Shown in pieces: positions 16,771 through 32,589 of a stretch of DNA of 64,000 bases. This DNA comes from Halorubrum persicum (lineage in GTDB: Archaea > Halobacteriota > Halobacteria > Halobacteriales > Haloferacaceae), in NCBI RefSeq assembly GCF_002727125.1, contig NZ_NHOA01000104.1, positions 1 to 64,000 on the forward strand, written 5' to 3'. The notes beneath the pieces were generated by a model, which searched no databases, was not told the origin of the DNA, and saw nothing but the letters and a program-made list of their open reading frames with translations. Every line of letters starts with the position of its first letter. Position 1 is the stretch's first letter. The position numbers were made by a program, and so were the translations under genes.

Positions 16771-18060
16771 TCAGGTCCCGTGCTCCCAGCTGTCCATGTA
16801 CTCGCGCTGCTCGTCGCTGAGGTGGTCGTACTCGACGCCCTCGGCGGCGAGTTTGATGTCCGCCACCTCGCGGTCGAGTTCGTCGGGCACGTCGTGGACC
16901 CCGGCCTCGTAGCGCTCGCCGTGCTCCGCGAGCTCGCGGACGACGACCGCCTGCACGCCGAAGCTCTGGTCCATCACCTCGACCGGGTGGCCCAGCGCGA
17001 TCGGCGCGGCGAGGTTGACGAGCCGCCCCTCGGCGATCACGTTCAGCACCCGACCGTCGTCCAGCTCGAACCCCTCGACGCCGTCGCGGACCTCGTAGCG
17101 GTCGACGGCGAGGTCGTCGAGGTCGTCGAGGTTCACTTCCACGTCGAAGTGGCCGGCGTTCGCGAGGAGGACGCCGTCCTGCATCTCCTCGAAGTGCTCG
17201 CGGGTGATCACGTCGCGGTTACCGGTCGTCGTGATGAACACGTCGCCCGTCTTCGCGGCCTCCCGCATCGGGAGGACCTCGTACCCCTCCATGTGCGCTT
17301 CGAGCGCCTTCCGGGGGTCGACCTCGCAGACGATGACGTTCGCGTTCTGGCCGGCGGCCTTCTTCGCGACGCCCTTGCCGCACTGGCCGTAGCCGCCGAC
17401 GACGACGTTCTTGCCGGCCCACGAGAGGTTGGTCGTCATCGCGATGGTCGCGAGCGACGACTCGCCGGTGCCGTGGACGTTGTCGAACAGCTGCTTCATC
17501 GGCGTGTCGTTCACGGCGAAGACGGGGTAGTGCAACTCGCCGTCGGCGTCCATCGCGCGCAGGCGGTCGACGCCGGTGGTCGTCTCCTCGGCGCCGCCGA
17601 CGATGGAGTCGATCAGCTCTGGGTACTCCTCGTGGACGAGCTTCACCATGTCCATCCCGTCGTCGACGGTGATGGTGGGCTCGTGGGCGATGCAGGCGTG
17701 CATCGCGTCGTAGTACGCCTCGTCGTCGACGCCGCGGACCGCGTAGGAGGTGATCGACTCGTGGGCGTCGAGCGCGGCCGACACGTCGTCGTGCGTCGAG
17801 AGGGGGTTACAGCCGGTGATCGCGACCTCGGCGCCGCCGTCGGCCAAGAGTTCGACGAGGTTCGCCGTCTTCGCCTCGACGTGCATCGCCATCGCGATCG
17901 TCTCGCCCTCGAGCGGCTGCTCGTCGACGAACTCGTCGCGGAGGGCGTTCAGAATCGGCATATGTTGGAGCGCCCAGTCCATCTTCCGGCGGCCCTCCTC
18001 GCGGGCCGTCTCGGGGTCCGAGAGGTGCTGTGACACCGGCGAGTACGCGGTTTCGCTCAT
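16771..18060 (-). CDS. ahcY: Adenosylhomocysteinase
   Basis: A 429-residue enzyme that hydrolyses S-adenosylhomocysteine to adenosine and homocysteine, using bound NAD. The NAD-binding motif is VVGGYGQCGKGVAKKAAG. Substrate and catalytic regions include AITGCNPLSTHDDVSAAL, MDMVKLVHEEYPEL and FDNVHGTGESSLATI. The end is DHLSDEQREYMDSWEHGT, slightly shorter than the bacterial form and typical of archaea. The ATG at 18060 is chosen over the GTG at 18078, with GGGTTTAG (minus strand, 18085-18092) 25-32 bases upstream. It is a member of the methyl cycle, as is the deaminase at 20283. Confidence 0.96.
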   Translation of the reverse strand: MSETAYSPVSQHLSDPETAREEGRRKMDWALQHMPILNALRDEFVDEQPLEGETIAMAMHVEAKTANLVELLADGGAEVAITGCNPLSTHDDVSAALDAHESITSYAVRGVDDEAYYDAMHACIAHEPTITVDDGMDMVKLVHEEYPELIDSIVGGAEETTTGVDRLRAMDADGELHYPVFAVNDTPMKQLFDNVHGTGESSLATIAMTTNLSWAGKNVVVGGYGQCGKGVAKKAAGQNANVIVCEVDPRKALEAHMEGYEVLPMREAAKTGDVFITTTGNRDVITREHFEEMQDGVLLANAGHFDVEVNLDDLDDLAVDRYEVRDGVEGFELDDGRVLNVIAEGRLVNLAAPIALGHPVEVMDQSFGVQAVVVRELAEHGERYEAGVHDVPDELDREVADIKLAAEGVEYDHLSDEQREYMDSWEHGT

Positions 18061-18167
18061 ATCACTCGGTTCGCTCACGGCGCACTAAACCCTGCCGACA
18101 CCGGGCGCGACCGGAAAAAGAACCGTCAGCGACTCGACGACCGAACCGGCGCGCGACGCGCCGTCAG

Positions 18168-19340
18168 TTACTGCGGGGCGTTCCCGTTACCCGGGCCGTT
18201 CCCGTTACCCGGGCCGTTCCCGGCGTCGTCGTCTTCACCTTCATCTTCCTCGTCCGCATCCTCCTCGTCTTCCTCCGCGTCGTCGCTGTCGTCTTCCTCT
18301 GCGTCGTCGCTGTCGTCTTCCTCCGCGTCGTCGCTGTCGTCTTCCTCCGCGTCGTCGTCGTCACCGTTCGGACCGGCGTGGCTCGGCGGTCCCTGCTCGT
18401 CGTCGCCCTCCGCGTCGTCGTCCTCATCTGCGTCGTCGCCGTCCTCACCGTTCGGGCCCGCGTGGTCCGGCGGACCCTGCTCGCCGCCGTTCCCGTTGCC
18501 CTGACCGGCGTGGTCGGGCGCGTTCCCGGGACTGTCGCTCGCGTTGCCGGCGTCGCTCCCGTTACCCGCGTCGTCCGGGCCGCCCGGGCTCCCGGCGTGG
18601 TCCGGAGCGTTCCCCGGGTTGTTCTCCGTCACGAAGTCCGAGACGGCGTCACCGATGCCGCCCTCGCGGTCCTGCAGGTCCTCGACGAACTCCTGGACGA
18701 CCTGGCCGAAGGGCTGTTCCTCGGTCTCGCCGCCCTCGGCGACCAGATCGACCGTCGCCGAGACGGACTCGTTCTCGTACTCGGCCGTCACGTCGACCGT
18801 GACGTTCTCTTCGGCGGCGGGGAGGCCGACGGTTCCGTTCGCGTCGGTTTCGTACTCGCCCCCGCCGGCGTAGGTGACGTTCTGTCCGTTGGCGGTCGTG
18901 ACGTTCACCGAGGCGTTCTCGACCGCCGCGTCGTCGTCGGTCACCGTGACGACCGGCTCGCCGTCGGCGTCCGACACGTCGAGTTCGAGCCCGTCGGGCG
19001 CCTCGAGATCGGCCGTCGTCGAGGCGGTCTGGTTCCCGGCGGTGACGGTCATCTCAACCGTCACGTCCTCCTCCGGAGCGGGAAGGCCGACGGTGCCGTT
19101 CGCGTCGGTCTCGTACTCGCCCGTCCCCGCGTACGACTCGTTCGCGGGGTCCGCGACGCTCACGTTGACCGTGGCGTTCTCGACCGCGGTGTCATTCTCG
19201 GTCACCGTGACCGTCGGTTCCCCGTCCGCGTCGTCGACGGTCACGCCGAGGTCGCCCTCGGCGGCCGCGACGCCGGTCATCGCGCCGAGCGCGACGACCG
19301 CGATCAGCAGCAGGCCAATCGTGCGTTCTCTCATGTGCAT
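18168..19340 (-). CDS. Secreted acidic protein with two Ig-like repeats and PDHAG-rich tail
   Basis: A 390-residue protein. A signal peptide (RTIGLLLIAVVALGAMTGVAAA) is followed by two similar domains of about 85 residues. Each has the pattern DADGEPxVTVTxxDxAVENA, then YAGxGEYETDANGTVGLP. A linker (EEQPFGQVVQEFVEDLQDREG) leads to a low-complexity half with four copies of a P-(D/S)HAG motif, Gly-Asn runs and an acidic block of DDAEEDDS repeats. The ATG at 19340 sits 25-30 bases after TTTTTATA (minus strand, about 19365-19372). The beta-sandwich-like repeats and Asn-x-Thr/Ser sites suggest an exported, perhaps N-glycosylated surface protein. No anchor is seen. Function unknown. Confidence 0.78.
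   Translation of the reverse strand: MHMRERTIGLLLIAVVALGAMTGVAAAEGDLGVTVDDADGEPTVTVTENDTAVENATVNVSVADPANESYAGTGEYETDANGTVGLPAPEEDVTVEMTVTAGNQTASTTADLEAPDGLELDVSDADGEPVVTVTDDDAAVENASVNVTTANGQNVTYAGGGEYETDANGTVGLPAAEENVTVDVTAEYENESVSATVDLVAEGGETEEQPFGQVVQEFVEDLQDREGGIGDAVSDFVTENNPGNAPDHAGSPGGPDDAGNGSDAGNASDSPGNAPDHAGQGNGNGGEQGPPDHAGPNGEDGDDADEDDDAEGDDEQGPPSHAGPNGDDDDAEEDDSDDAEEDDSDDAEEDDSDDAEEDEEDADEEDEGEDDDAGNGPGNGNGPGNGNAPQ
18268..18357. repeat. 24-bp tandem repeat, 3.75 copies
   Basis: Three full units (18268-18291, 18292-18315, 18316-18339) and one partial unit (18340-18357). The units differ at only one base (unit 2). The repeat encodes the acidic DDAEEDDS blocks of the secreted protein. 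It should be prone to gain and loss of units by slippage. Confidence 0.9.
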
Positions 19341-19386
19341 CCGGCCCGTGACACCGTTACCGTATAAAAAGGGAACTCCGTTAAGT

Positions 19387-19398
19387 CGGTTTAAACCG
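19387..19398. promoter_or_regulatory. Perfect 12-bp palindrome upstream of the secreted-protein promoter
   Basis: CGGTTTAAACCG is a perfect palindrome located 47-58 bases before the start codon of the secreted acidic protein and just upstream of its TATA-like box. It is flanked by two further TTAA-containing arms (CGTTAA at about 19379-19384 and TTAACG at 19412-19417). This is a plausible operator for a dimeric regulator; no regulator is known. Confidence 0.4.
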
Positions 19399-19562
19399 GA
19401 TTTCACTCGGGTTAACGGGCTTCTCCGGCCAGTTTCGGGAATACGGGTCGAAACGCGGTTCGCACCAACCGATCGGGGAGCTGTTCCCCCCGTCTCGCCC
19501 CTCGGACGCGGCTCGGACGTGCGGCCGGCCCCCGCGCTCCGATCGTCGCGCCCCGGCACCCC

Positions 19563-20201
19563 TCACGGGGCTCGGCCCTCGTCCAGCGCGAGCCGCAGGC
19601 CGAACCCGACCAGGACGCTGCCGCTCGCGTATCGGACGGCGCGTCGACCGACCGCCGACTCCAGCAGCAGGTGCCGCGCGCGGTCGGCGAACAGCGCCAC
19701 GCCGGCGAGATACAGGAGACTGAGACCCGCGTACACCGCACCGAGGACGGACAGCTGGAGGGAGGCGTCCGCGCCCGCCGGGACGAACTGCGGGAAGAAC
19801 GCGAGCACGAACACGGCCACCTGCGGATTGGTGACGTTGATCGTGACGGCCCGCCGATACGACTCGACGAGCGACCGGTCCCCGGCCCCGGCCGACCCGT
19901 CGAGATCGAACGTCTCGTCGTCCCTGAGTAGCCGTACGCCGAGGTACACCAGGTAGGCGGCGCCGACGTACTTCACGACGAGGTACGCCTCGGCCGTCGT
20001 GCGCAGGAGCGCGGAGAGGCCGAGGACCGCGGCGCCCGCGTGCACCAACACGCCGGTCGCGGTGCCGACCGCCGCGGCGACCCCGGCCGCTCGGCCGTCG
20101 CTGAGACTCTGGGTCACCGTGTATATCGAGTCCGGGCCGGGCGAGACGATGACCGCCGCGACCGCCGGAACGAACGCGAGCACGACGGGCAGATCGATCA
20201 C
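19563..20201 (-). CDS. LysE/RhtB-family exporter
   Basis: A 212-residue membrane protein with about six hydrophobic segments. The family motif IVSPGPDSIYTVTQSLSDGR follows the first helix. KYVGAAYLVYLGVRLLRDDE and VNVTNPQVAVFVLAFFPQF-like sequence (here INVTNPQVAVFVLAFFPQFV) complete the match. Members export amino acids or homoserine-type compounds. A box reading GTTTTAATC (20222-20230, minus strand) gives a nearly leaderless start at 20201. The substrate is unknown; the neighbours do not indicate one. Confidence 0.9.
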   Translation of the reverse strand: MIDLPVVLAFVPAVAAVIVSPGPDSIYTVTQSLSDGRAAGVAAAVGTATGVLVHAGAAVLGLSALLRTTAEAYLVVKYVGAAYLVYLGVRLLRDDETFDLDGSAGAGDRSLVESYRRAVTINVTNPQVAVFVLAFFPQFVPAGADASLQLSVLGAVYAGLSLLYLAGVALFADRARHLLLESAVGRRAVRYASGSVLVGFGLRLALDEGRAP

Positions 20202-20282
20202 GACCGGCCCGTCGCCCGGGCGCCGATTAAAACCCCCCGACGCTCCGGATACTTGCTCCGCGACCGCGGCGTCGCCCGGTCC

Positions 20283-21638
20283 TCACGCGGCGTCGCCGAC
20301 CCGGTCGACGAGGTCGCTCGCGGCCGCCGCCGCCCGCTCCTGAACGGCGTCGGCGTCGAGCGTGAGGACCTCGCGATCCCGCATCAGGACCGTCCCGTCG
20401 CAGACGGTGTGGCGCACGTCGCTCCCCCGAGTCGCGTACGCGAGGTGCGAGACGGGGTCGTGCACCGGCGTGAGATGCGGGGCGTCGAGGTCGACGACGG
20501 CGAGGTCGGCGGCGGCGCCCGGCTCGATCCGACCGCCGGGGAGCCCGAGGGCCTCGGAACCCCCGGCGGTCGCCATCTCCACGACCGCCTCGGCGGGGAC
20601 CGCGGCGGCGTCGTCCGCGGCGAGCTTCCCGAGCATCGCGGCGTCGCGCATCTCGTCGAACACGTCGAGGTCGTTGTTCGAGGCCGCCCCGTCGGTGCCG
20701 AGCGCGACCGTCACGCCCGCCTCGCGGAGGCGTTGGACCGGCGCCATCCCGCTCGCGAGCTTCATGTTCGAGGCCGGGCAGTGGACGATCGCGGTCCCGG
20801 CGTCGGCGAGCCGGTCGATCTCCGACGCGTCGAGGTGGACGCCGTGCGCGAAGAAGTCGTCCGGACCGAGCGCGTCGATCGCGGCGGCGTACGCGATCGG
20901 CCGCTCACCCCGCTCGTCGACGATCGGGTCGACCTCGTCGGTCGTCTCGTTCGCGTGGAGATGGATCGGGACCCCCGACTCGCGGGCCGCCGCGACGCCC
21001 TCGCGGAGGAACTCCTCGCCGACCGTGGTCAGCGAGTGCGGCATGAACGCGGTCCGGATCCGACCGTCCGCGGCGCCGTCGAGCTCCGTCGCGATCGCTA
21101 AGCTCTCCTCGATGTCGGCGCGAGCGTCCGCGTCGTCCTTCCCGACCGTGACCACGCCGTGACCGAGCCGGGCGCGAAGCCCCGCGCGATCGACCACGTC
21201 CGCGACGCGGTCCATCGCGAAGTACATGTCCGCGAACGCGGTCGTCCCCGACCGGATCATCTCCAGTGCGCCGAGCTCGGCGCCGGCCTCGACGTCGTCC
21301 GGCGTGAGCTCGGCCTCGGCCGGCCAGATGTCCTCGCGCAGCCACGGGTCGAGCGGCTTGTCGTCGGCGTACCCGCGGAGGAGCGTCATCGCGACGTGGG
21401 TGTGTGCGTTGACGAGCCCCGGGATCACGAGCGATCCGTCGGCGTCGAGCACCTCGTCCGCGTCGGGACGCTCGTCGGCGGAGGTCCCCGCCTCCCCGTC
21501 ACCTTCGGTCCGGCCGGCCGCGGTGTCGTCGCCCACCGCGACGATCGTCCCGGCGTCGCGGTCGACCAGCACGTCCGACTCGGTCACGTGACCGTCGGGA
21601 CGGAGCACCTGTCCGCCCGCCACGCGAAGCGTGTTCAT
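20283..21638 (-). CDS. mtaD: Amidohydrolase, probable MTA/SAH/5'-deoxyadenosine deaminase
   Basis: A 451-residue member of the amidohydrolase superfamily. Metal ligands are in NAHTHVAMTLLRGYADD; further motifs are HANET (metal), the GVHLD region and the glycine-rich LGTDGAASNNDLDVFDEMR. This set is that of the MtaD/SsnA group, which deaminates the adenine ring of S-adenosylhomocysteine, methylthioadenosine or 5'-deoxyadenosine. An acidic insertion of about 20 residues near position 45 is a halophile feature. With ahcY 2 kb away it fits recycling of S-adenosylmethionine products. Which nucleoside is preferred cannot be told. Confidence 0.85.
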   Translation of the reverse strand: MNTLRVAGGQVLRPDGHVTESDVLVDRDAGTIVAVGDDTAAGRTEGDGEAGTSADERPDADEVLDADGSLVIPGLVNAHTHVAMTLLRGYADDKPLDPWLREDIWPAEAELTPDDVEAGAELGALEMIRSGTTAFADMYFAMDRVADVVDRAGLRARLGHGVVTVGKDDADARADIEESLAIATELDGAADGRIRTAFMPHSLTTVGEEFLREGVAAARESGVPIHLHANETTDEVDPIVDERGERPIAYAAAIDALGPDDFFAHGVHLDASEIDRLADAGTAIVHCPASNMKLASGMAPVQRLREAGVTVALGTDGAASNNDLDVFDEMRDAAMLGKLAADDAAAVPAEAVVEMATAGGSEALGLPGGRIEPGAAADLAVVDLDAPHLTPVHDPVSHLAYATRGSDVRHTVCDGTVLMRDREVLTLDADAVQERAAAAASDLVDRVGDAA

Positions 21639-21748
21639 GCCCCCGCTTCCGCCCGGCGGACCTAACGCCTTCCGTTCGGCGGTGCCGGGGTCGTCCCCGT
21701 CGTCCCCGCCTCCGAACGTTCTTTCCCGGTCGCCGCCTGAGTCCGTCC

Positions 21749-22135
21749 ATGACAACCGATGCCCAGCGGGCGTGTTTCGAGGCCGGGATCAAGTTCGGCT
21801 CGCTGTACCACCAGTTCGCGGGGACGCCCGTCAGCCCGGCGAGCACGCGCAGCCTGGAGGCGGCGATGGCCGAGGCGATCGAGAATCAGCCGTTCTGCGA
21901 CGCGGTGACCGTCGATATCCACGACGATCGGGTCGCGGAGGCGATCGACCACGAGAACGGGTACACCGAGCTGACCGGTTCGCTGATGGACGTCGAGATG
22001 CGGATCGCTTACGAGGGTGTGACCGTCCGCACCCGGATGGCGATGCGGGACGGCTACCCGCTGATGGAGCTGGTCGCGGTCGACGATCCAACGGGCGACC
22101 CCGACGAGGGAGACGAGGTCAACGTGGACAGTTGA
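21749..22135 (+). CDS. mptD: Archaeal dihydroneopterin aldolase (MptD type)
   Basis: A 128-residue protein matching PF04038. It contains FEAGIKFGSLYHQFAGTPVS, a central EAIENQPFCDAV, and MRIAYEGVTVRTRMAMRDGYP. The MptD enzyme converts dihydroneopterin to 6-hydroxymethyl-dihydropterin and glycolaldehyde, a step of archaeal pterin biosynthesis. The conserved Glu and Tyr/His residues of the first motif are present. It is divergent from the deaminase gene. The acidic C-terminal tail (DDPTGDPDEGDEVNVDS) is a halophile addition. Confidence 0.88.
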   Translation: MTTDAQRACFEAGIKFGSLYHQFAGTPVSPASTRSLEAAMAEAIENQPFCDAVTVDIHDDRVAEAIDHENGYTELTGSLMDVEMRIAYEGVTVRTRMAMRDGYPLMELVAVDDPTGDPDEGDEVNVDS

Positions 22136-22225
22136 TACGTCTGTTCACTCGAACCCCCCCTTCCTCCGATGACTATAGAAAACTTTGAGGAAGATTTTAG
22201 TACAACCTACCAAAAGCGGTGTAAT

Positions 22226-24103
22226 ATGCCCGATCCAAAAAGTGGGGAGGCAGTTGAGAGCACGAAGCGACGACGGCTACTCGGCCTCCTCGGCGGCGGG
22301 GCGGCGGTAAGCCTCGCCGGCTGTTCCGATCAGGAGCCCTCCGACGGTGGCGACGGAAGCGACGGGAGTGACGGCAGCGACGGTATGGACGGCGACGACG
22401 GCGAAGATGGCGAGGACGAGCCCCAGCGCACCAACGCCGACAAGGCGCAGGCCGCTTGGGAGCGCGCCGTCGCCAACCCCCTCCCGGAAGACGAAGAACT
22501 CCGAAAAGAGGCGTACATCGAGATGGAGGAGGCGGTCCGCGACGACGCCGCGGTCATCCCGCTGTTCCACTCCTTCACCGAGCGGTTCTGGTACGACTAC
22601 GTCGATGTCCCGGTGAGCGGTGCGCTGGGCGCCCACTGGCAGCAGTACAACACGACGACCGTCGAGGGACAGAGCGAGCTCAACCTGGTCAACGACACCT
22701 TCGACGAGCTCGACCCCATCATGTCCACCGACACGGCGTCGTCGCGGGTCATCACGCAGCTCTACGAGAACCTGACGGCGTTCCCCAACGGCGTCCCGGT
22801 GATCGAGAACCAGCTCATGTCGGAGTACGAGGTCTCCGAGGACGGCACCACGTGGACGTTCACCCTCCGCGACGACGTCCAGTTCCACGACGGGAGCCAG
22901 ATGACGGCGCAGGACGTGAAATACTCCTGGCGCCGCACCGTCGAGTCGGAGAACTCCGAGCGCGCGAGCTTCACCCTCAATCAGCCCGTCGGACTCGGTA
23001 TCGACGCCGAGACGGACGACGACGGGAACGTCGTCGCCGACTCGCTGGCGATCGAGGTCATCGACGACCGAACCATCGAGATCCAGCTCGTCGGTCCGAA
23101 CCCCGACGTGCTCGACGTCATCGCGTACTCCAGCTTCTCCGTGATCCCGCAGGGGTACGTCGGCGACATCGAGGGGTACGACGGCGAGGTCACTCACCAG
23201 GAGTTCTCGACCGAGGTCGCTAACGGGACCGGACCGTTCGAACTCGACGCGTTCAACGTCGACGAGGACGTCACCGTCGTCCGCAACGACGACTACTACG
23301 GCGAGGTCGCCAGCGTCGACGCCGTCAACTGGGAGATCATCGAGGACAGCCAGGCGGCGTGGACCTACGCGCTCGAACAGAACGCCGACATCTTCAGCGT
23401 GCCGACGTTCGCGTACGAGGCCGACGCCATCGACGCCGAGGCCGACGACCGCGGTCGACAGGTCGGGACGTACGGTCCGGCGGGCGAACTGAACGAGGAG
23501 GTCAACTACGTCGGCGTCTCGGAGATCAGCACGTACTACTTCGCGTTCAACGTCTCGAACACGCAGCGCGCGGCCCGGCAGGCGATCGCGTACGTGATGA
23601 ACAAAGATCAGATCGTGCAGGAAGTGTTCGCCGGCCGCGGCACCCCGGCCTACAGCTTCCTCCCCCCCGCGATCTGGCCCACCGGGAACGACGGGTACAA
23701 CCAGTTCCTCGACGCGTACCCGTACAGCCTCGGCGAGAGCGACATCGAGGGCGCCCGATCGGTCCTCGACGAAGCCGGCATCACGACCGACGACCCGGTC
23801 GATATGACGCTCACCACGTACGAGAGTCAGGTGTTCCAGACGGCGGGCGAGCTCGTCCGCGACCTGATCTCCGGGACCGGAGTCAACCTGTCGCTCGAGT
23901 CGTCGCAGTTCTCGACCCTGCAGAGCCGCGGTGAGGACGGTGACCTCGAGATGTACAGTCTCGGGTGGATCTGGAGCTGGCCGGCGGTTCCGTACGGCAT
24001 GTTCCAGCTCGAACCGCTCAACACCGACACCTCGTCGATGCCCGGCGAGACCAACGGATTCTACCTCGACTGGCAGACCCGGCTCGAGGAAGAGGCCGAG
24101 TAG
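22226..24103 (+). CDS. dppA: ABC transporter substrate-binding lipoprotein, apparently circularly permuted
   Basis: A 625-residue peptide/nickel-type binding protein. The N-terminus has twin arginines (KRRRLLG) and a lipobox LAGC (Cys33), then a Gly/Ser/Asp linker. The normal core runs from about residue 151 (ELNLVNDTFDELDPIM) through FTLRDDVQFHDGSQMTAQDV to the C-terminal FYLDWQTRL, where the protein stops. The piece that normally forms the C-terminus of this family (LRKEAYIEMEEAVRDDAAVI, IPLFHSFTERF) is instead at residues 69-148, before the core. A TTTTAGTA box (22196-22203) supports the ATG at 22226. It is the first gene of the transporter operon and should be membrane-anchored by lipid. 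Confidence 0.9.
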   Translation: MPDPKSGEAVESTKRRRLLGLLGGGAAVSLAGCSDQEPSDGGDGSDGSDGSDGMDGDDGEDGEDEPQRTNADKAQAAWERAVANPLPEDEELRKEAYIEMEEAVRDDAAVIPLFHSFTERFWYDYVDVPVSGALGAHWQQYNTTTVEGQSELNLVNDTFDELDPIMSTDTASSRVITQLYENLTAFPNGVPVIENQLMSEYEVSEDGTTWTFTLRDDVQFHDGSQMTAQDVKYSWRRTVESENSERASFTLNQPVGLGIDAETDDDGNVVADSLAIEVIDDRTIEIQLVGPNPDVLDVIAYSSFSVIPQGYVGDIEGYDGEVTHQEFSTEVANGTGPFELDAFNVDEDVTVVRNDDYYGEVASVDAVNWEIIEDSQAAWTYALEQNADIFSVPTFAYEADAIDAEADDRGRQVGTYGPAGELNEEVNYVGVSEISTYYFAFNVSNTQRAARQAIAYVMNKDQIVQEVFAGRGTPAYSFLPPAIWPTGNDGYNQFLDAYPYSLGESDIEGARSVLDEAGITTDDPVDMTLTTYESQVFQTAGELVRDLISGTGVNLSLESSQFSTLQSRGEDGDLEMYSLGWIWSWPAVPYGMFQLEPLNTDTSSMPGETNGFYLDWQTRLEEEAE

Positions 24104-24208
24104 AGGCTCTCGCCCTCCGATTATCGAAGCATTTAGCTATCGCACGAGACACCCTCCAATATTGAGTCGATCCATGCCCACCACGACCCCAAGAGACCGT
24201 AAGACGCC

Positions 24209-25279
24209 ATGAGCCGCTGGGAATACTTCATTAAGCGGCTACTGCTCACCGTCCCGGTGTTGTTCTCCGTGTTGACCTTCCTGTTCATCATGCTCCGGAC
24301 GGGACCGATCGATCCGGTCGCCGCACGCCTCGGCCCCCAAGCGGGCGCGGCGGACAGACAGCAGCTCCGGGAGCGGCTGGGCCTCAACGACCCGCTGTGG
24401 GAGCAGTACGTCGACTTCATCACGGACTTCATCACGTTCAACTTCGGCCAGTCGTGGGTTGTGCAGGCCGAGCGGGACATCCTCGACATCGCCGTCGGCG
24501 CCGCACCGGCGACGCTCTGGCTGGGGTTTTGGGCGATCCTGCTGCCGCTGTTCATCGGGATCCCTCTCGGCTTCTACGCCGGACTCAACCCTAACACGTT
24601 CGGCGACTATGCGGCCTCCCTCGGCGGCATCATCTGGCAGGCGCTGCCGAACTTCTGGCTGTGCGTGATCGCGCTGGCGGTGCTTCGGCGCACCCGCGAG
24701 GGCGGCGAGCTGCTCGGCATCAACTGGTACACCCTCGGCCCGGACTTCGCGGCCCGCGACATCAGCATCACCGGGACCCCGGCACTCGAGTGGTTCTCGA
24801 CGACCGACGTGCTGATGCTCCCGATGCCGTACGTGAGCGACTGGACGGCGCTGGCGATCGACATCAAGCTCATCCTGCCGCCGGCGCTCATCCTCGGGTC
24901 GGCGTCGATGGCGGCCGAGCTGCGCATCGGTCGGACCGCGATGCTGGAGACGGTCAACTCGAAGTTCGTCGAGACCGCGAAGGCGAAGGGGCTCCCCAGC
25001 CGCGTGATCGTCTGGAAGCACATCTTCCGCAACGCCATGATCCCGCTGCTGCCGGTGATCACGAGCGAAGCGTTCCTGCTCATCGGCGGCTCCGTGATCG
25101 TCGAACAGATCTTCAACATCAACGGGCTCGGGCGGATCTTCTTCCAGTCGCTGACGCAGGGTGACCTGCCGATGGCCGGGGCCCTGCTGTTCCTCTTCAC
25201 GCTGATCATCTTGGGGCTCAACATCCTCCAAGACTTCCTGTACACCGTTATCGATCCCCGCGTGGGGTACGACCAATGA
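24209..25279 (+). CDS. dppB: Peptide-type ABC transporter permease (DppB-like)
   Basis: A 356-residue permease. It starts WEYFIKRLLLTVPVLFSVLTF and RERLGLNDPLWEQYVDFI, the standard DppB/OppB opening. There are about six membrane segments and an EAA-type coupling loop (ETAKAKGLPSRVIVWKHIFR). It ends LYTVIDPRVGYDQ. It forms the channel with the product of the next gene, whose ATG overlaps its stop (ATGA at 25276-25279). Length is slightly above the usual 310-340 because of a loop near residues 160-215. Confidence 0.93.
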   Translation: MSRWEYFIKRLLLTVPVLFSVLTFLFIMLRTGPIDPVAARLGPQAGAADRQQLRERLGLNDPLWEQYVDFITDFITFNFGQSWVVQAERDILDIAVGAAPATLWLGFWAILLPLFIGIPLGFYAGLNPNTFGDYAASLGGIIWQALPNFWLCVIALAVLRRTREGGELLGINWYTLGPDFAARDISITGTPALEWFSTTDVLMLPMPYVSDWTALAIDIKLILPPALILGSASMAAELRIGRTAMLETVNSKFVETAKAKGLPSRVIVWKHIFRNAMIPLLPVITSEAFLLIGGSVIVEQIFNINGLGRIFFQSLTQGDLPMAGALLFLFTLIILGLNILQDFLYTVIDPRVGYDQ

Positions 25280-27018
25280 GCACGAGACAGAGCGATTCCA
25301 CGGACGGATTCGAGGAACCGGACGACGACAAGCTGTTCCGCGACCGCGTCCGGGAGAATCCCCGACCGGCGGCGGTCTGGCTCGCCGGACTCGCGCTCCT
25401 GCTCCTGCTCGAAATCGGTCGCGTGTTCGCCGGCGTCGGTCAGGCGTTCGGGATCGTCGGGTTCACGGTCGAGCTCTTCGCGAGCATCCCGGCCTCGGTC
25501 GGCGACAACGTGGCCGGAACGCTCGGCGGCGCGGCCGGGTTCGTCGCGACCGCGCTCACGGCCGTGCTGATCGCCTTCGCGATCACGGTCCCCGTCTCCG
25601 GGAGCGTCCCCGACGCCGCCGTCGACATTCTCGGGCTCGACCTCTCGCGCCGGGGGCGCCGCTGGGCGAAGCGCGCCGAACTGACGTTCGTCCTCGTCGC
25701 CGTCGCCGGGCTCATCGCGTACACGCCGGTCGGCGGCGCGTTCTCCGCGCTGATCGGTGCGATCACCGGCGGCGTCGACGCGCTCGCCTCGGCGCTCCCG
25801 TCGATCACGAGCCGAGACCTGATCGCGAACACCGGCCACCGACTGCCGGACGGCGGCTGGGAAGGGACGTTCCTCGGCCTCTCGCCCGCCGCCGCGTGGG
25901 CGATCCGGACCGGGCTCGTGTTCGCGTACGCCACCGCGTTCCTCGTCTGGTTGTGGCGGGGGTTCAACGTCTACCGGACGCACTACCGGCTCGCCGACTG
26001 GACGCCCCGGGACGACACGGTCCGGCGCTTCCGGCACAACTACTGGGGGCTGTTCGGCTTCGTGATCGTCTTCCTGTTCGTCGTGCTGGCCCTGTGGGCG
26101 CCGGCGGTGAGCCCGGTCGAGGCCCAGCACAACATCTACGAGCCCAACGCTCACGAGTTCCAATACCTCGACGAGAACGGCGAGGTCACCTCCACGACGC
26201 ACGTGTTTGCGAACCTCCAGAGCCGCTCCGACGGCCAGAACACGATCGGACCGATGAGCTACGACGGCTACGGGCGGTGGGCACCGCTCGGGACGACGAA
26301 CAGGGGCCAAGACATGATGACGCACCTCTCGTACGGCGCCCGGACCTCGCTCGTCATCGGGGTCACGGCGATCGGGCTCGGGGCGCTCATCGCGGTCGTC
26401 CTCTCGCTCCTGTCGTCGTACTACAAGGGGATCACCGACATCGCGACGGTGATGGCGAGCGACACCATTCAGGCGGTCCCGGCGCTGCTGCTCATCATGC
26501 TCGTCTCCGTCGTCTTCCAAGAGGCGAACCACCCGATCGCCCAACCGCTCGACGGCGGACTGCTGTTGGCGCTGATCTTCGCGTTCGCCTACTGGCCCGG
26601 AATGTGGCGCGCGATACGCGGCCCCTCGCTGCAGGTGTCCGAACAGGAGTGGGTCGACGCCGCGAAGAGCTACGGACAGACCCCCCTACAAACGATGCGC
26701 AAACACATGGCACCCTACATCGCCGGCTACATCCTGATCTACGGATCGCTTCTGATCGGCGGCGTGATCATCTCGACCGCCGCGCTGACGTTCCTCGGAC
26801 TCGGGATCAACCCGCCGACCCCCGAGTGGGGACGGCTCATCAACGGCGGACAGTCGTACATCTCGACCAGCTCCTGGCACGTCGCGACCATCCCCGGAAT
26901 CGCGATCGTCTTGGTCGTTATCGCGTTCAACGCGCTCGGTGACGCGATCCGCGACGCGATCGATCCGGAGGCCGACGTGGACGAGAGCGAGGCCGCCACC
27001 GCCGGAGGTGGTGCGTGA
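25276..27018 (+). CDS. dppC: Peptide-type ABC transporter permease (DppC-like) with extra N-terminal membrane domain
   Basis: A 580-residue protein, about twice the usual length. The normal DppC part begins near residue 250 (RRFRHNYWGLFGFVIVF) and includes GTTNRGQDMMTHLSYGARTS and an EAA loop (WVDAAKSYGQTPLQTMRKHM). The first about 245 residues form an additional domain with about four membrane helices (for example AAVWLAGLALLLLLEIG, ALTAVLIAFAITVPV, LTFVLVAVAGLIAYTPV). I do not know this extra domain. The start overlaps dppB, and the stop overlaps dppD by one base (TGATG). All starts in the operon are coupled, so the long form is genuine in frame. Confidence 0.9.
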   Translation: MSTRQSDSTDGFEEPDDDKLFRDRVRENPRPAAVWLAGLALLLLLEIGRVFAGVGQAFGIVGFTVELFASIPASVGDNVAGTLGGAAGFVATALTAVLIAFAITVPVSGSVPDAAVDILGLDLSRRGRRWAKRAELTFVLVAVAGLIAYTPVGGAFSALIGAITGGVDALASALPSITSRDLIANTGHRLPDGGWEGTFLGLSPAAAWAIRTGLVFAYATAFLVWLWRGFNVYRTHYRLADWTPRDDTVRRFRHNYWGLFGFVIVFLFVVLALWAPAVSPVEAQHNIYEPNAHEFQYLDENGEVTSTTHVFANLQSRSDGQNTIGPMSYDGYGRWAPLGTTNRGQDMMTHLSYGARTSLVIGVTAIGLGALIAVVLSLLSSYYKGITDIATVMASDTIQAVPALLLIMLVSVVFQEANHPIAQPLDGGLLLALIFAFAYWPGMWRAIRGPSLQVSEQEWVDAAKSYGQTPLQTMRKHMAPYIAGYILIYGSLLIGGVIISTAALTFLGLGINPPTPEWGRLINGGQSYISTSSWHVATIPGIAIVLVVIAFNALGDAIRDAIDPEADVDESEAATAGGGA

Positions 27019-28379
27019 TGGCCGTCGAAGAGGAGTCCGCGTCCGGGGCTGCGGCGGCAGACGAGGCCCGGAGCGACGACCCGCTCATCGACGTTCGGAA
27101 CCTCCAGACCGCGTTCTTCACCGACAAGGAGACGATCCGCGCCGTCGACGGGGTCGACTTCCAGATCGACTCGGGCCAGACGGTCGGCATCGTCGGCGAG
27201 AGCGGGAGCGGGAAAAGCGTCACGGCCCGCTCGCTGATGGGACTGATCGAGTCGCCGGGGCGCGTGCTCCGCGGGAGCAGCGTCCGCTACCGCGATCTCG
27301 ACGCGGTCCGCGAGTTCGCCGAGCTGTTCTCGAAGCGGACGGTCGCGGTCGAGGAGTTGGCCGCGCGGTACGACCCCACGGAGGTGTTCGGGGCGACCGA
27401 CGCCACCCCGGCGGAGTTCGGCCACGACGACCCCGCCGATGTCCCCGTGGTCGACGTGGCCGCGGCCGGCTACACCGACGAGGTCGGGATCACGGACGGC
27501 GACGAGTGCGTCTTCGTGCTCGACGGCGACGTCGACTCTCCCGCGTCGATCCGCGACGGGTTCGTCGAGATCACCCGCCTCTCCGGCGAGGCCCAGCGCA
27601 AGATGCGCGGCGGCCGGATCGCGATGGTGTTTCAGGACCCGCTGACCAGCCTCAACCCCGTCTACACGGTCGGGAATCAGATCGAGGAGGCGCTGGAACT
27701 CCACCAGGGGCTCTCCGGGAAGGAGGCCACGCAGGAGGCCGCGGAGCTGCTCGAGGCGGTCGGGATCCCGGACGCCCGCCGGCGGGTCAACGAGTACCCG
27801 CACCAGTTCTCCGGCGGGATGCGCCAGCGCGCCGTCATCGCGATGGCGCTCGCGTGCGAGCCCGACATGCTGATCTGCGACGAGCCGACCACCGCGCTCG
27901 ACGTCACGATCCAGGCGCAGATCCTGGACCTGATCGCGGAGATCCAGGAGTCGCGGGACGTGGCGGTGATGTTCATCACCCACGACATGGGCGTGATCGC
28001 CGACGTTTCCGACCGGGTCAACGTGATGTACGCCGGCGAGGTCGTCGAGTCGGCCGACGTGGGACCGCTGTTCGCGGACCCGAAACACCCGTACACCAAC
28101 GGGCTCCTCGACTCGATCCCGGGCGGGCAGGTCGGCGACAAGCTGTCGACGATCGACGGCAGCGTCCCGACGCCGAACGAGCCGGCGACGCACTGCCGGT
28201 TCGCCCCCCGGTGTCCGAAGGCGTTCGACGAGTGCGAGTCGGTTCATCCGGTTCCAACGCCCGTCGACGAGGAGACGGACGACCACACGGCCGCGTGCCT
28301 GCTGTACCCGGACGACGTTTCGACCGAGGAGGCCGTCGAGCGACATCAGGAGCAGGACCGCCGAGGTGACCGACAATGA
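27018..28379 (+). CDS. dppD: Peptide-type ABC transporter ATPase (DppD-like) with insertion before the Q-loop
   Basis: A 453-residue ATPase. The Walker A motif is GESGSGKS (60-67), the Q-loop MVFQDPLTSLNP, the signature FSGGMRQR, Walker B LICDEPT and the H-loop MFITHDMG. A C-terminal oligopeptide-transporter domain has paired cysteines (CRFAPRCP...C). Between Walker A and the Q-loop there are about 80 residues more than normal (about 94-180), acidic and without cysteine pairs. The ATG at 27018 is chosen rather than the GTG one codon upstream; either would be coupled to dppC. Confidence 0.93.
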   Translation: MAVEEESASGAAAADEARSDDPLIDVRNLQTAFFTDKETIRAVDGVDFQIDSGQTVGIVGESGSGKSVTARSLMGLIESPGRVLRGSSVRYRDLDAVREFAELFSKRTVAVEELAARYDPTEVFGATDATPAEFGHDDPADVPVVDVAAAGYTDEVGITDGDECVFVLDGDVDSPASIRDGFVEITRLSGEAQRKMRGGRIAMVFQDPLTSLNPVYTVGNQIEEALELHQGLSGKEATQEAAELLEAVGIPDARRRVNEYPHQFSGGMRQRAVIAMALACEPDMLICDEPTTALDVTIQAQILDLIAEIQESRDVAVMFITHDMGVIADVSDRVNVMYAGEVVESADVGPLFADPKHPYTNGLLDSIPGGQVGDKLSTIDGSVPTPNEPATHCRFAPRCPKAFDECESVHPVPTPVDEETDDHTAACLLYPDDVSTEEAVERHQEQDRRGDRQ

Positions 28380-29740
28380 GCCAGAACACAGCTTCGACGA
28401 CGCCGGACGACCGGGCTGAGACCCCGTCCGACACGATGGTGAAGGTACGGGACCTGAAGACGTACTACGACAGCGGCAGTCTGTTGGAGGACCGTCCCGT
28501 CAAGGCGGTCGACGGCGTCAGTTTCGACATCCGGCGGGGGGAGACGCTCGGGCTCGTCGGCGAGTCCGGCTGCGGGAAGACCACCCTCGGTCGGACGCTC
28601 ATCCAGCTCGAAGAGGCGACCGACGGCGAGGTCCTGTTCGACGGCACCGACATCACCTCGCTGCGCGGCGACCAGCTCTACGAGTGGCGACAGAACGCGC
28701 AGATGGTGTTTCAGGACCCCGACTCCAGCCTGAACGACCGGATGACGATCGGCGAGATCATCCGGGAACCGCTCGACGTTCACGACTGGAAGACGCCGGC
28801 CGACCGCCGGAAGCGCGTCAAATCCCTGCTGGACGAGGTCGGCCTCTCGCCCGAGCACTACTACCGGTACCCGCACCAGTTCTCGGGCGGGCAGCGCCAG
28901 CGGATCGGCATCGCGCGGACGCTCGCGTTGAACCCCGAGTTCATCGTGCTCGACGAGCCGGTGAGCGCGCTCGACGTCTCGGTGCAGGCCGAGATCATCA
29001 ACCTGCTCGAAGAGCTTCAAGACGAGTTCGACCTGACGTACCTGTTCATCGCCCACGACCTCTCCGTCGTCCGGCACATCTGTGACCGGGTCGCGGTGAT
29101 GTACCTCGGCAACATCATGGAGATCGGTCCGACCGAGGAGCTGTTCACCGACCCGGCGAACCCGTACACCCACGCGCTCCTCTCGGCGATCCCGAAGCCG
29201 GACCCCACCGCGAGCCGCGACCGGATCACGCTCCACGGGACGCCGCCGAACCCGCGGTACCCGCCGACGGGCTGTCCGTTCAGCACGCGGTGTCCGGTCC
29301 GCATCCGCCCCGACAAACACGAGGACCTCGACGACGAGGTCTGGGAGGGGATCAACGGGTTCCGCGAGATCATCCGCGAGCGCATGCGCGCCGACCGCTC
29401 GATCCGCGAGCGAGTCCGCGAGCGCTTCGGCTTGGAGACTCGCTTCGCTACGATCGACGAGACGTACGACGAGCTGTTCGGCGACACCGCGGTGCCGGAC
29501 GAGGTCGAGCGGGTCCTCACCGACGTCGCCGAGGCCGCCGGCAACCACGAGGAACAGGCGGCGCTCGACCGACTCAACGCCGAGTTCGGAAGCGTCTGTG
29601 ACGGCGTCGCCCCCGAGGGCGGGGCCGACCCCGTCGAGCCCGAGTACTACGAAGTGAGCGACAGCGGTCGCTTGAGCTACTGTCACCGCCACGATGCCGA
29701 GCACCGAGAGACGGAGACCGTGCTCGACGACCGCAGCTAA
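28376..29740 (+). CDS. dppF: Peptide-type ABC transporter ATPase (DppF-like) with inserted C-terminal domain
   Basis: A 454-residue ATPase. It has Walker [10 protein letters not shown]-loop [15 protein letters not shown], signature [15 protein letters not shown], Walker [14 protein letters not shown] and H-loop FIAHDLS. The oligopeptide-transporter C-terminal domain starts [11 protein letters not shown] but is then interrupted by about 120 residues, mostly charged helix ([20 protein letters not shown]), before the last cysteines (SVCDG and LSYCHRHD). The start overlaps dppD (ATGA). It powers import together with DppD. Confidence 0.93.
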
Positions 29741-29743
29741 CCC

Positions 29744-30148
29744 ATGGGCGTTCCTCGCCGGTTCCGGACGCGCGCCCGCGCCCTGGCCGACGCGTTCGCG
29801 TACGCCCTCGTGGTGGCCGTCGTCGTGCTGCTCGGCTCGGTCGCGCTCGGGCTCGCGACCGGCGGGGGATTCGTTCGGGGGAAGCTGTTGGCGTTCGTGG
29901 CCGGCTGGCTTCTCGTCGGCTACGCCACGGTGCGGCTGTGGCCCTCCTCGGTCGACGACCTCGACCGCCCGTCGATGAGCGCGCGCGGCACGCGCCTCGA
30001 GGGTCTCGTTCGAGCGCTCCCGCCGATCCGGTGGATCCGGCTCCCGGCGCCGCCGGAGCGGGTCCGCGTCGCCGGAAAGGTGCTCCTCGCCGGCGTCGCG
30101 ACGCTCGGGGGCTCGCTGCTGATGGAGACGGCGCTCGGCGTCGCCTGA
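29744..30148 (+). CDS. Small membrane protein at the end of the transporter operon
   Basis: A 134-residue protein with three hydrophobic segments (FAYALVVAVVVLLGSVALGL, LLAFVAGWLLVGYATVRLW, VLLAGVATLGGSLLMETAL). It starts four bases after the dppF stop, so it is probably cotranscribed. No motif recognised; it resembles small haloarchaeal membrane proteins that I know only as unnamed families. A link to transporter assembly is possible but rests on position alone. Confidence 0.7.
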   Translation: MGVPRRFRTRARALADAFAYALVVAVVVLLGSVALGLATGGGFVRGKLLAFVAGWLLVGYATVRLWPSSVDDLDRPSMSARGTRLEGLVRALPPIRWIRLPAPPERVRVAGKVLLAGVATLGGSLLMETALGVA

Positions 30149-30197
30149 GCGGGCTCGAAAAGAGTTATCTTTCTCCCCCGACCAGTCGCACACAGCA

Positions 30198-30764
30198 ATG
30201 GACCCCGAGGAGGACGCCTTCGTCCGTCAGCGCCAGCGGTTCGGCGAGGAGCACATCACCGCGTGGGAGCAGACGCTCGAGGAGACCGATATGCTCGCCG
30301 AGGACCGCCGGGACGATGGGTGGGAGACGACCGTCGTCATGGTCCCCCATACCGACACGGTCAGCCGGGACATGAAGGACCACGACCGGTTCGGCCTGAT
30401 GCACGTCGTTCCGAACAACTACGCCGACGCGTTCGTCGAGGCGTACGACGAGGAGGCGTACACCGAGTACCTCGTGTACGGGGACGCCATCGACGGGGTG
30501 ATGTACGTCGCCATCGAGCTCATCGATCCGGACGCGAAACGATCGATCTTCGTGCCGTGCAAGTACGACATGACGACGGCGGACGGAATGACGCAGTCCG
30601 CCGTCGACGAGGGCGCGCTGTACAGCCACTTCAACACCATCTCCGGAGAGACCCTCGGGCGATTCCGGTACGAGGAGTTCCGCCCCCTCGTCGCGCCCCC
30701 GGACAAGGACAGCGCCACCACCGTCGCCACCGTCGACGAGCCGACCGGCAACGGCGGCGCCTGA
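30198..30764 (+). CDS. Haloarchaeal conserved protein of unknown function
   Basis: A 188-residue soluble, acidic protein. Its core has several alternating hydrophobic strands (WETTVVMVPHTDT, RFGLMHVVPNN, TEYLVYGDAIDGVMYVAIEL, RSIFVPCKYDM), which suggests an alpha/beta or beta-rich domain. I know of similar haloarchaeal sequences only as an unnamed family (possibly DUF7529). A GTTATCTT box (30164-30171) 27-34 bases upstream gives it its own promoter. It converges with the GTPase gene, with only three bases between the stops. Confidence 0.72.
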   Translation: MDPEEDAFVRQRQRFGEEHITAWEQTLEETDMLAEDRRDDGWETTVVMVPHTDTVSRDMKDHDRFGLMHVVPNNYADAFVEAYDEEAYTEYLVYGDAIDGVMYVAIELIDPDAKRSIFVPCKYDMTTADGMTQSAVDEGALYSHFNTISGETLGRFRYEEFRPLVAPPDKDSATTVATVDEPTGNGGA

Positions 30765-30767
30765 GCC

Positions 30768-32417
30768 TCACTCCGCGGAGTCGTCAGTTCCGGTCTCGCC
30801 GATCGACCGGACGGTTCCGACGCCCTTGCTCGACCCCTCTCGGAAGACGAACCGCTGACCCTCCTCGATCAGGTACGGGCGGAACTTGAATCGGACCGTC
30901 GTCCGCCCGGTGTCTCCGGGGAGGAGCCGCCCGCCCTCGGGAGCGAAGACGGCCGCCTCCGACACCGTCTCGACGTGGACGACCGGCTCGTACCCCTCCT
31001 GTATCCGCGTCGGATGGTTCAGGACCATCACCTCGGCCTCGAACTCGCGGACCGGCTCGGGGTCGCTTCCGCGGGGCACCAGGGCCATCCCCCGCTCGAT
31101 CTCCGACTCGTCGACCCCCTTCAACGCGATCCCGACGATCCGGCCGGCGGTCGCCTTATCGACGCGGTGGTAATGCATCTCGATCGAGCGCACCTCCACC
31201 TCGCGCAGGGAGCCGTCGGCCATCGGTCCCAAGAGGAGCTCGTCGCCGGCCTCCACGGTGCCGGAGTTGACCGTTCCGGACGCGACCGCGCCGACGCCCG
31301 TCACCTTGTAGCTCCGATCGACGTACATCCGGAACTCCTCGCGCTCCGGCGTCGCCCGCTTCGGGAGCGTCTCGAACAGCCGGTCGAGCGTCCCGATCCC
31401 CGCCTTCGTCACGGCGCTCGTCCGGAGCAGCGGAACGACGCCGTCGCCCACCTCTGCGACCGCCGCGTCGATCCCGTGTCGGTCGACGAGGAGGGGCGTC
31501 TGTCCGGCGTCCCGCAGCATCGACTCGGTCTCGCGCTCGACTTCGGCGAGCCGCTCGTCGCTCACGGCGTCCGCCTTCGTGATCGCGACGATCGTCGGGA
31601 GCTCCGTCGCCAGGAGGATCCCCAGGTGCTCGCGGGTCGTCGTCGTCGGCCCGTCGTCGGCGGCGACGACGAGGAGCCCGTAGTCGAGCTTCTGGCCGAC
31701 GAGTCCGCGGATCGTCGTCCGGAGCCACGGCTCGTGGCCGACGGTGTCGACGAATGAGACCAGCCGGTCCGCCTCTTCGACGATCCGGGCGCGGTCGGAC
31801 TTGCGGTGCGGGTTGTCCATCCGGACCGGCTCGTCGCCGCCGTCGTCGAAGCCGTAGACGGCGTACGACAGGTCGGCGGAGAGCCCCCGCTCGACCTCGT
31901 GCGGCTGGACGTCGAGGAAGCCGCGCGTGCCGCCCTGCCCGTCGTCGGCGTGGCCGGTGACGAGGGTCCCCACGAGCGTCGACTTCCCGTGATCGACGTG
32001 GCCGGCCGTGCCGATCACGAGGTGGTCGTCGTCCATCTCGAACATCCCCCCGTCGCGGAGGGTGGCGAGGCCGACGAGCCCCTCCGCGCTCCCGTTGCCG
32101 TCGGATCCGGCGCTCCACGTCTCCACGTCGGCGATGTGGGCGTCCGCCTCGTCGGCCAACAGCGAGAGCACGTCCATCGTCTCGGAGAAGGCGTCGGGGG
32201 AGATCCCGGCCAACCCGCCGTCGTCGGTGACGCCGAGGACGTAGGTGGCCTCGCCGTCGCCGGAGAGCACGCGATGGCGGAGCTGGGCCACGAGCGACTC
32301 CATTCGGCCCTCGGCTAAGTGGACCTCCCGAGTCAGGCGCTCCTTGAACTCGATCTCGCCGCCGTCCCGTTCGCCGCGCTCGATGGCCCGCCGGAGGGCG
32401 GACCGGTCAGCGCTCAT
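30768..32417 (-). CDS. GTPBP1-like translational GTPase
   Basis: A 549-residue GTPase. An N-terminal domain (about 1-130) precedes the G domain. G1 is GTAGHVDHGKST; G3 is in FVDTVGHEPWL; G4 is TKAD. Two EF-Tu-like beta-barrel domains follow (MYVDRSYKVTGVGAVASGTV and VMVLNHPTRIQEGYEPVVH). The N-terminal domain plus this G domain is the layout of archaeal GTPBP1-type proteins, which are related to EF-1A and SelB and linked to mRNA or ribosome quality control in eukaryotes. The archaeal role is not settled. It is divergent from the regulator at 32590. Confidence 0.88.
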   Translation of the reverse strand: MSADRSALRRAIERGERDGGEIEFKERLTREVHLAEGRMESLVAQLRHRVLSGDGEATYVLGVTDDGGLAGISPDAFSETMDVLSLLADEADAHIADVETWSAGSDGNGSAEGLVGLATLRDGGMFEMDDDHLVIGTAGHVDHGKSTLVGTLVTGHADDGQGGTRGFLDVQPHEVERGLSADLSYAVYGFDDGGDEPVRMDNPHRKSDRARIVEEADRLVSFVDTVGHEPWLRTTIRGLVGQKLDYGLLVVAADDGPTTTTREHLGILLATELPTIVAITKADAVSDERLAEVERETESMLRDAGQTPLLVDRHGIDAAVAEVGDGVVPLLRTSAVTKAGIGTLDRLFETLPKRATPEREEFRMYVDRSYKVTGVGAVASGTVNSGTVEAGDELLLGPMADGSLREVEVRSIEMHYHRVDKATAGRIVGIALKGVDESEIERGMALVPRGSDPEPVREFEAEVMVLNHPTRIQEGYEPVVHVETVSEAAVFAPEGGRLLPGDTGRTTVRFKFRPYLIEEGQRFVFREGSSKGVGTVRSIGETGTDDSAE

Positions 32418-32589
32418 GTCCGTTCGTAGGCGATAGCCGGGCTTAACGGTTTTCGTGCTATGCGCCCCCACGCCACATGACTGGTTCCGAGCGGTCGAGA
32501 GCCGCAGGGAGCCGCGGGGAGCCGTCGCCGCTCCCCAGATCGACGACCCTCGGCGCACCTTTTAAGAGACCGCCCGAAGCAACGGGCGT

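Follow-up and report, generated by a model that had tools for sequence, protein, structure and literature searches.

Probable circular permutation of a cluster C substrate-binding lipoprotein in Halorubrum persicum and its recurrence among haloarchaea

Natural circular permutations of proteins are typically single, ancient events represented by few structures. Among binding proteins of ABC importers, the closest described case is Tp0684 (TpMglB-2) of Treponema pallidum and relatives, a natural circular permutation with a crystal structure that was named "cluster Bc" and whose authors raised tethering as a possible driver of the permutation (PMC4990184). The second system of reference is the DppA/OppA type (SBP_bac_5, PF00496), represented by E. 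coli DppABCDF (PMC12136057). The protein described here, encoded in the 64,000-nucleotide stretch of Halorubrum persicum DNA that was analysed (the window; contig NZ_NHOA01000104.1), is very probably a functional cluster C lipoprotein of the Dpp/Opp type that serves an ABC importer and has a circularly permuted gene, in which the last ~80 residues lie between the linker and the old N-terminus. Like TpMglB-2, it is a tethered, naturally permuted binding lipoprotein of an ABC importer. However, TpMglB-2 is a bacterial cluster B sugar-binding protein with one permuted topology, whereas the haloarchaeal family belongs to cluster C, displays two cut points and recurrent permutation, and is known from sequence. 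With the DppA/OppA type it shares the core sequence, the dppBCDF operon and a likely import role, but the latter has the canonical segment order and Asp408 at the position of Ser584 in the window protein, so the ligand may differ. Three canonical relatives (L092, L095 and L016, from genomes G296, G404 and G141, respectively) are 54-59% identical to the window protein over the core and belong to the same kind of operon, yet carry the moved segment at the C-terminus. No natural permutation in cluster C or archaeal binding proteins was found in the literature, subscription papers aside, TpMglB-2 being the sole natural case. A permuted ABC binding protein was already known in TpMglB-2; its occurrence in cluster C and in archaea appears to be new, and the surprise is its recurrence.

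The window gene is an uninterrupted open frame encoding 625 residues plus a stop codon (Table 1). The protein was divided into three segments, termed Cseg, core1 and core2, each of which was located in relatives separately. The lipobox LAGC provides Cys33 and is preceded by the Tat-like motif RRR; a Tat-like signal plus lipobox was recognized in 33/36 proteins with the window's order (order A), 17/17 with a second permuted order (order B) and 40/46 canonical ones, as a sequence pattern from which lipidation is predicted. The linker has a median length of ~30-37 residues in canonical, A and B orders alike. Pfam SBP_bac_5 (PF00496) covers residues 193-593 only (E 2e-69; 234.9 bits against a cut-off of 32.4). 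As the initial annotation described, LRKEAYIEMEEAVRDDAAVI and IPLFHSFTERF both lie within residues 69-148 and the protein stops directly after FYLDWQTRLEEEAE. It had named residues 69-148 as the moved segment; the segment is right, while its start falls more exactly at about residues 69-72 (NADKAQAAWER).

Table 1. Features of the permuted lipoprotein gene and of the transporter genes behind it, in window coordinates.
Feature	Position	Strand	Basis
SBP_bac_5 (cluster C) permuted substrate-binding lipoprotein, Cseg-core1-core2	22226..24103	+	frame, Pfam, segment mapping
Tat-like signal and lipobox, residues 1-33 (RRR...LAGC)	22226..22324	+	sequence; A, B and canonical relatives alike
Linker, acidic Gly/Ser/Asp, residues 34-68	22325..22429	+	sequence
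Cseg, residues 69-148: C-terminal segment of the family, N-terminal here	22430..22669	+	segment matches, dN/dS
Fusion of the old termini (...QYNTTTVEG/QSELN...)	22652..22687	+	residue-level comparison with canonical ends
core1, residues 149-493 (N-terminal part in canonical order)	22670..23704	+	Pfam, segment mapping
core2, residues 494-625; new C-terminus FYLDWQTRLEEEAE	23705..24100	+	segment mapping, residue-level comparison
dppB-like permease	24209..25279	+	frame, homology
dppC-like permease	25276..27018	+	frame, homology
dppD-like ATPase	27015..28379	+	frame, homology
dppF-like ATPase	28376..29740	+	frame, homology

The initial annotation predicted that homologues would carry the moved segment at the C-terminus, and this is what was observed. 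When residues 69-148 alone were compared with canonical haloarchaeal relatives, they matched the extreme C-terminus, mostly with E values of 1e-10 to 4e-29, and aligned over the whole segment with up to 56-59% identity. The matches include residues 776-853 of 854 in L016 (56% identity), 546-623 of 627 in L020 and 553-627 of 628 in L095. Among solved structures, the best relatives of the window protein (for example 8upi, 8are and 1dpp) bind peptides and belong to cluster C, which places it outside cluster B, the type I sugar-binding family. Restoring Cseg behind the core lengthened the alignments to solved structures to near the chain ends: the score with 8upi rose from 91.9 to 100 bits and the alignment, which had stopped at residue 410 of the 523-residue chain, now reached residue 487, the scores of the rotated protein rose from 57.5 to 65.5 bits with 5u4o and from 62.7 to 67.8 bits with 3tpa, and 6dqq displayed a similar extension. 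A profile of permuted N-terminal segments gave two matches to solved structures, both weak and given no weight here; one of them fell on the C-terminal end of 2wok (E 1). In a residue-level comparison the order A cut separates the (G)YYLDW strand from the KAQxAWERI helix, so that in the window protein the loop following the GFYLDW strand is, by this comparison, the one that holds the new ends, and the old termini are joined with hardly any added residues. The outgroup and the solved cluster C proteins have canonical order, as has the wider family, the window's order being shared by its orthologues rather than family-wide. Since Cseg is C-terminal in canonical relatives, rotation lengthens the structure alignments and the old ends are fused, the circular permutation proposed from the window alone is well supported at the sequence level.

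Residues 69-148 might instead constitute an extra or unrelated N-terminal domain of a protein simply truncated at the C-terminus. Pfam finds no domain within these residues, and the AlphaFold models of the window protein, which are too poor to define a fold, have a mean pLDDT of 43.5 with alignment A1 (15 rows) and 46.3 with alignment A3 (14 rows, linker removed); both alignments are shallow, and values below 50 are explained by their restriction to 14-15 similar sequences. Such a domain is nevertheless hardly credible in view of the full-length alignment to canonical C-termini described above; in addition, none of 126 frames has Cseg at both ends and the Cseg tree tracks the core tree. Nor is it at all likely that the segment was recombined in from another paralogue, giving a chimera with no rotation. 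Haloarchaeal genomes hold several such genes, but the nearest relatives for Cseg alone and for the core alone are the same for the window protein, L091, L107, L016 and L095. For the permuted genes of G411 and G158 (L091 and L107), Cseg and core likewise point to one and the same set of canonical relatives as the closest. The dppBCDF tree agrees with the segment and core trees, and because all of these trees agree the segment is best regarded as rotated, not taken from a paralogue.

Cluster C binding proteins typically have two lobes plus an additional domain. In their structures the N- and C-termini are close together at the sheet of domain I. The N-terminal part and the last ~40 residues make up lobe 1, and the central part of the chain, as far as the start of those residues, makes up lobe 2 (PMC10924461). 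The statement in the initial annotation that both ends lie in one lobe agrees with these structures. As the canonical ends adjoin in lobe 1, fusing the old termini would leave the folded domain and ligand binding in place. Alignment to DppA, together with the published lobe limits, places the cuts of orders A and B alike within lobe 2. The lipid anchor and the ~35-residue linker would therefore enter via a lobe 2 loop instead of lobe 1, and the permuted proteins likely retain the same fold and role with the tether shifted from lobe 1 to lobe 2. With a linker of ~35 residues, the position of the tether may be unimportant. Long linkers argue for near-neutrality, and recurrence at lobe 2 loops argues for structural permissiveness or selection.

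The distribution of the segment orders was assessed in 392 sampled genomes of the taxonomic order (391 for order B), with counts taken from match rows and order A defined by matches running from the N-terminal part across the 148/149 joint to the protein end. Order A was present in 41/392 genomes, several of them single-contig; among the named records are Halorubrum species, Natronococcus jeotgali, Halopiger goleimassiliensis and Halapricum sp. The 126 frames comprise 54 canonical, 51 A and 21 B, some of which are duplicate records; removal of duplicates left 46, 36 and 17, respectively. Beyond the class, relatives were weak, core-only and confined to two genomes, and none were found in viral contigs. 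An assembly or annotation error in the window's genome, which the initial annotation kept as an alternative, can be excluded for practical purposes: the window assembly does consist of 158 contigs, but the identical order recurs, at 46-92% identity, in independent assemblies that include the single-contig genomes G146, G253 and G391. Cseg has a dN/dS of 0.19-0.40, compared with 0.13-0.29 for core1, which reveals purifying selection on the moved segment. A decayed gene is ruled out by this selection and by the presence of order A in 41/392 genomes.

For the trees of the binding protein, sequences were rotated to canonical order, and the branch supports given here are SH-aLRT values alone. Monophyly of all A proteins was rejected (AU p 0.0002). 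L091, the order A protein of the two-contig genome G411, groups with canonical proteins; its nearest relatives within genus g85 are canonical and 61-74% identical per segment, with 65-71% for Cseg. L107, from G158, groups with canonical proteins of G159, G160, G161 and others (66-81% per segment). Because the permuted genes in both of these genomes are most similar to canonical ones (61-81% identity per segment), order A is, on these trees, of at least three independent origins (the main clade, G411 and G158). The binding-protein, dppBCDF and combined trees all nest canonical G404 within the main A clade (support 98 in the last tree), and canonical G141 and G385 also fall there, less surely. 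Monophyly of main A was rejected both for dppBCDF on its own (AU p 0.0043) and for the full gene set once long branches had been removed (AU p 0.0047). This nesting and the rejected monophyly therefore require at least one more change, either a return or another gain. That the main clade had a single A origin, with the nested canonical genes (G404, perhaps G141 and G385) as returns, requires the fewest steps and draws on the same nesting and AU results; it is a reading that we find nearly, if not quite, as probable as its negation, since a history of gains only is possible, the clade has canonical genes immediately outside it as well, two additional A gains are already known and recombination could have restored a canonical copy.

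Order B, in which the segments follow as core2-Cseg-core1, was found in 26/391 genomes. The mature protein starts at the YPYSxGE loop and stops just before it. Order B proteins form a single clade (support 100), and on this evidence order B is of one origin. Neither this second cut point nor the recurrence of permutation was visible to the initial annotation from the window alone. One widespread family thus displays at least four independent permutations at two cut points, with closely related operons differing in order; in a recent case, relatives at ~76% identity remain canonical. Tentatively, and somewhat less probably than not, these haloarchaeal cluster C lipoproteins may be a permutation hot spot, in which one lobe 2 loop would have been cut on three or more independent occasions and another lobe 2 loop once, perhaps with returns, the tether passing from lobe 1 to lobe 2 each time as if selected. 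The family is a natural test of how freely protein chains can be re-cut, and makes the DNA origin of permutation and the effect of the tether on transport directly testable. Domain annotation, whether N- or C-terminal, and sequential aligners misread such proteins, which also offer natural templates for biosensors from permuted binding proteins.

In G158, the most recent case, the 3' segment seems to have been relocated to a position behind the signal and linker, which were kept. G158 is one fragmented metagenome assembly with the locus on a 5,116-base contig. Compared with G160, the upstream region, signal/linker, core and dppB occupy the expected places at ~78-85% identity, the stretch matching the last ~400 bases (3' end) of the canonical gene immediately follows the signal/linker in G158, and the flanks are unchanged; no Cseg remnant was seen past the G158 stop. 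The 3' segment would have been moved or copied behind the retained signal/linker and the original then lost. Permutation by duplication is the standard model (PMC3320104), and the route first proposed for the window gene was of this classical kind, a tandem duplication of the whole gene followed by loss of both ends, with a new start and stop. Neighbouring family members do exist, as in the two genes of G021:C13 (L124), but this route appears rather unlikely: the permuted genes keep signal, lipobox and linker in front, the 126 frames include no two-copy intermediate, and in G158 the 3' segment alone has been relocated, leaving no trace at the 3' end. We infer that 3' segment relocation or partial duplication fits better than whole-gene duplication. 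The G158 subfamily carries an extra insert of ~80 residues between core2 and Cseg, and the A cut falls inside it; this loop therefore tolerates both insertions and new ends. In L167-L173 the insert has a small alpha/beta, HMA-like look. At L124 (G021:C13:489500-498500), the two family members are canonical and share a strand at a distance of ~4 kb, an arrangement in which copies might recombine.

Directly downstream of the window gene, dppBCDF is intact and encodes two permeases and two ATPases, as in a Dpp-type importer. The permuted genes examined head dppBCDF operons, with G158 and some other contigs ending before dppDF. A comparison of L129 (G141:C1:66000-84000) with window positions 16771-32558 revealed flanks that are 82-92% identical and operon genes that are 54-70% identical, the dpp operon of G141 occupying the same chromosomal place as that in the window; apparently a divergent version with canonical order has taken the place of the entire operon. 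DppA uses Asp408 (residue 436 of the precursor) to pair with the amino group of the peptide (PMC12136057). The counterpart of this residue in the window protein is Ser584, within GWIWSW (residues 581-586; 23966-23983). The motif GWxWSW is present in nearly all of the window's clade, canonical sisters included, while L091, order B proteins and many canonical relatives have GWIADW/Y. Because the peptide-binding Asp is replaced by Ser584, the name "dipeptide-binding protein" is premature, and the ligand of the window clade is probably not an ordinary dipeptide. Two small genes past dppF (29744-30148 and 30198-30764) recur behind the operon in several genomes at ~33-45% identity and may be part of the transport unit.
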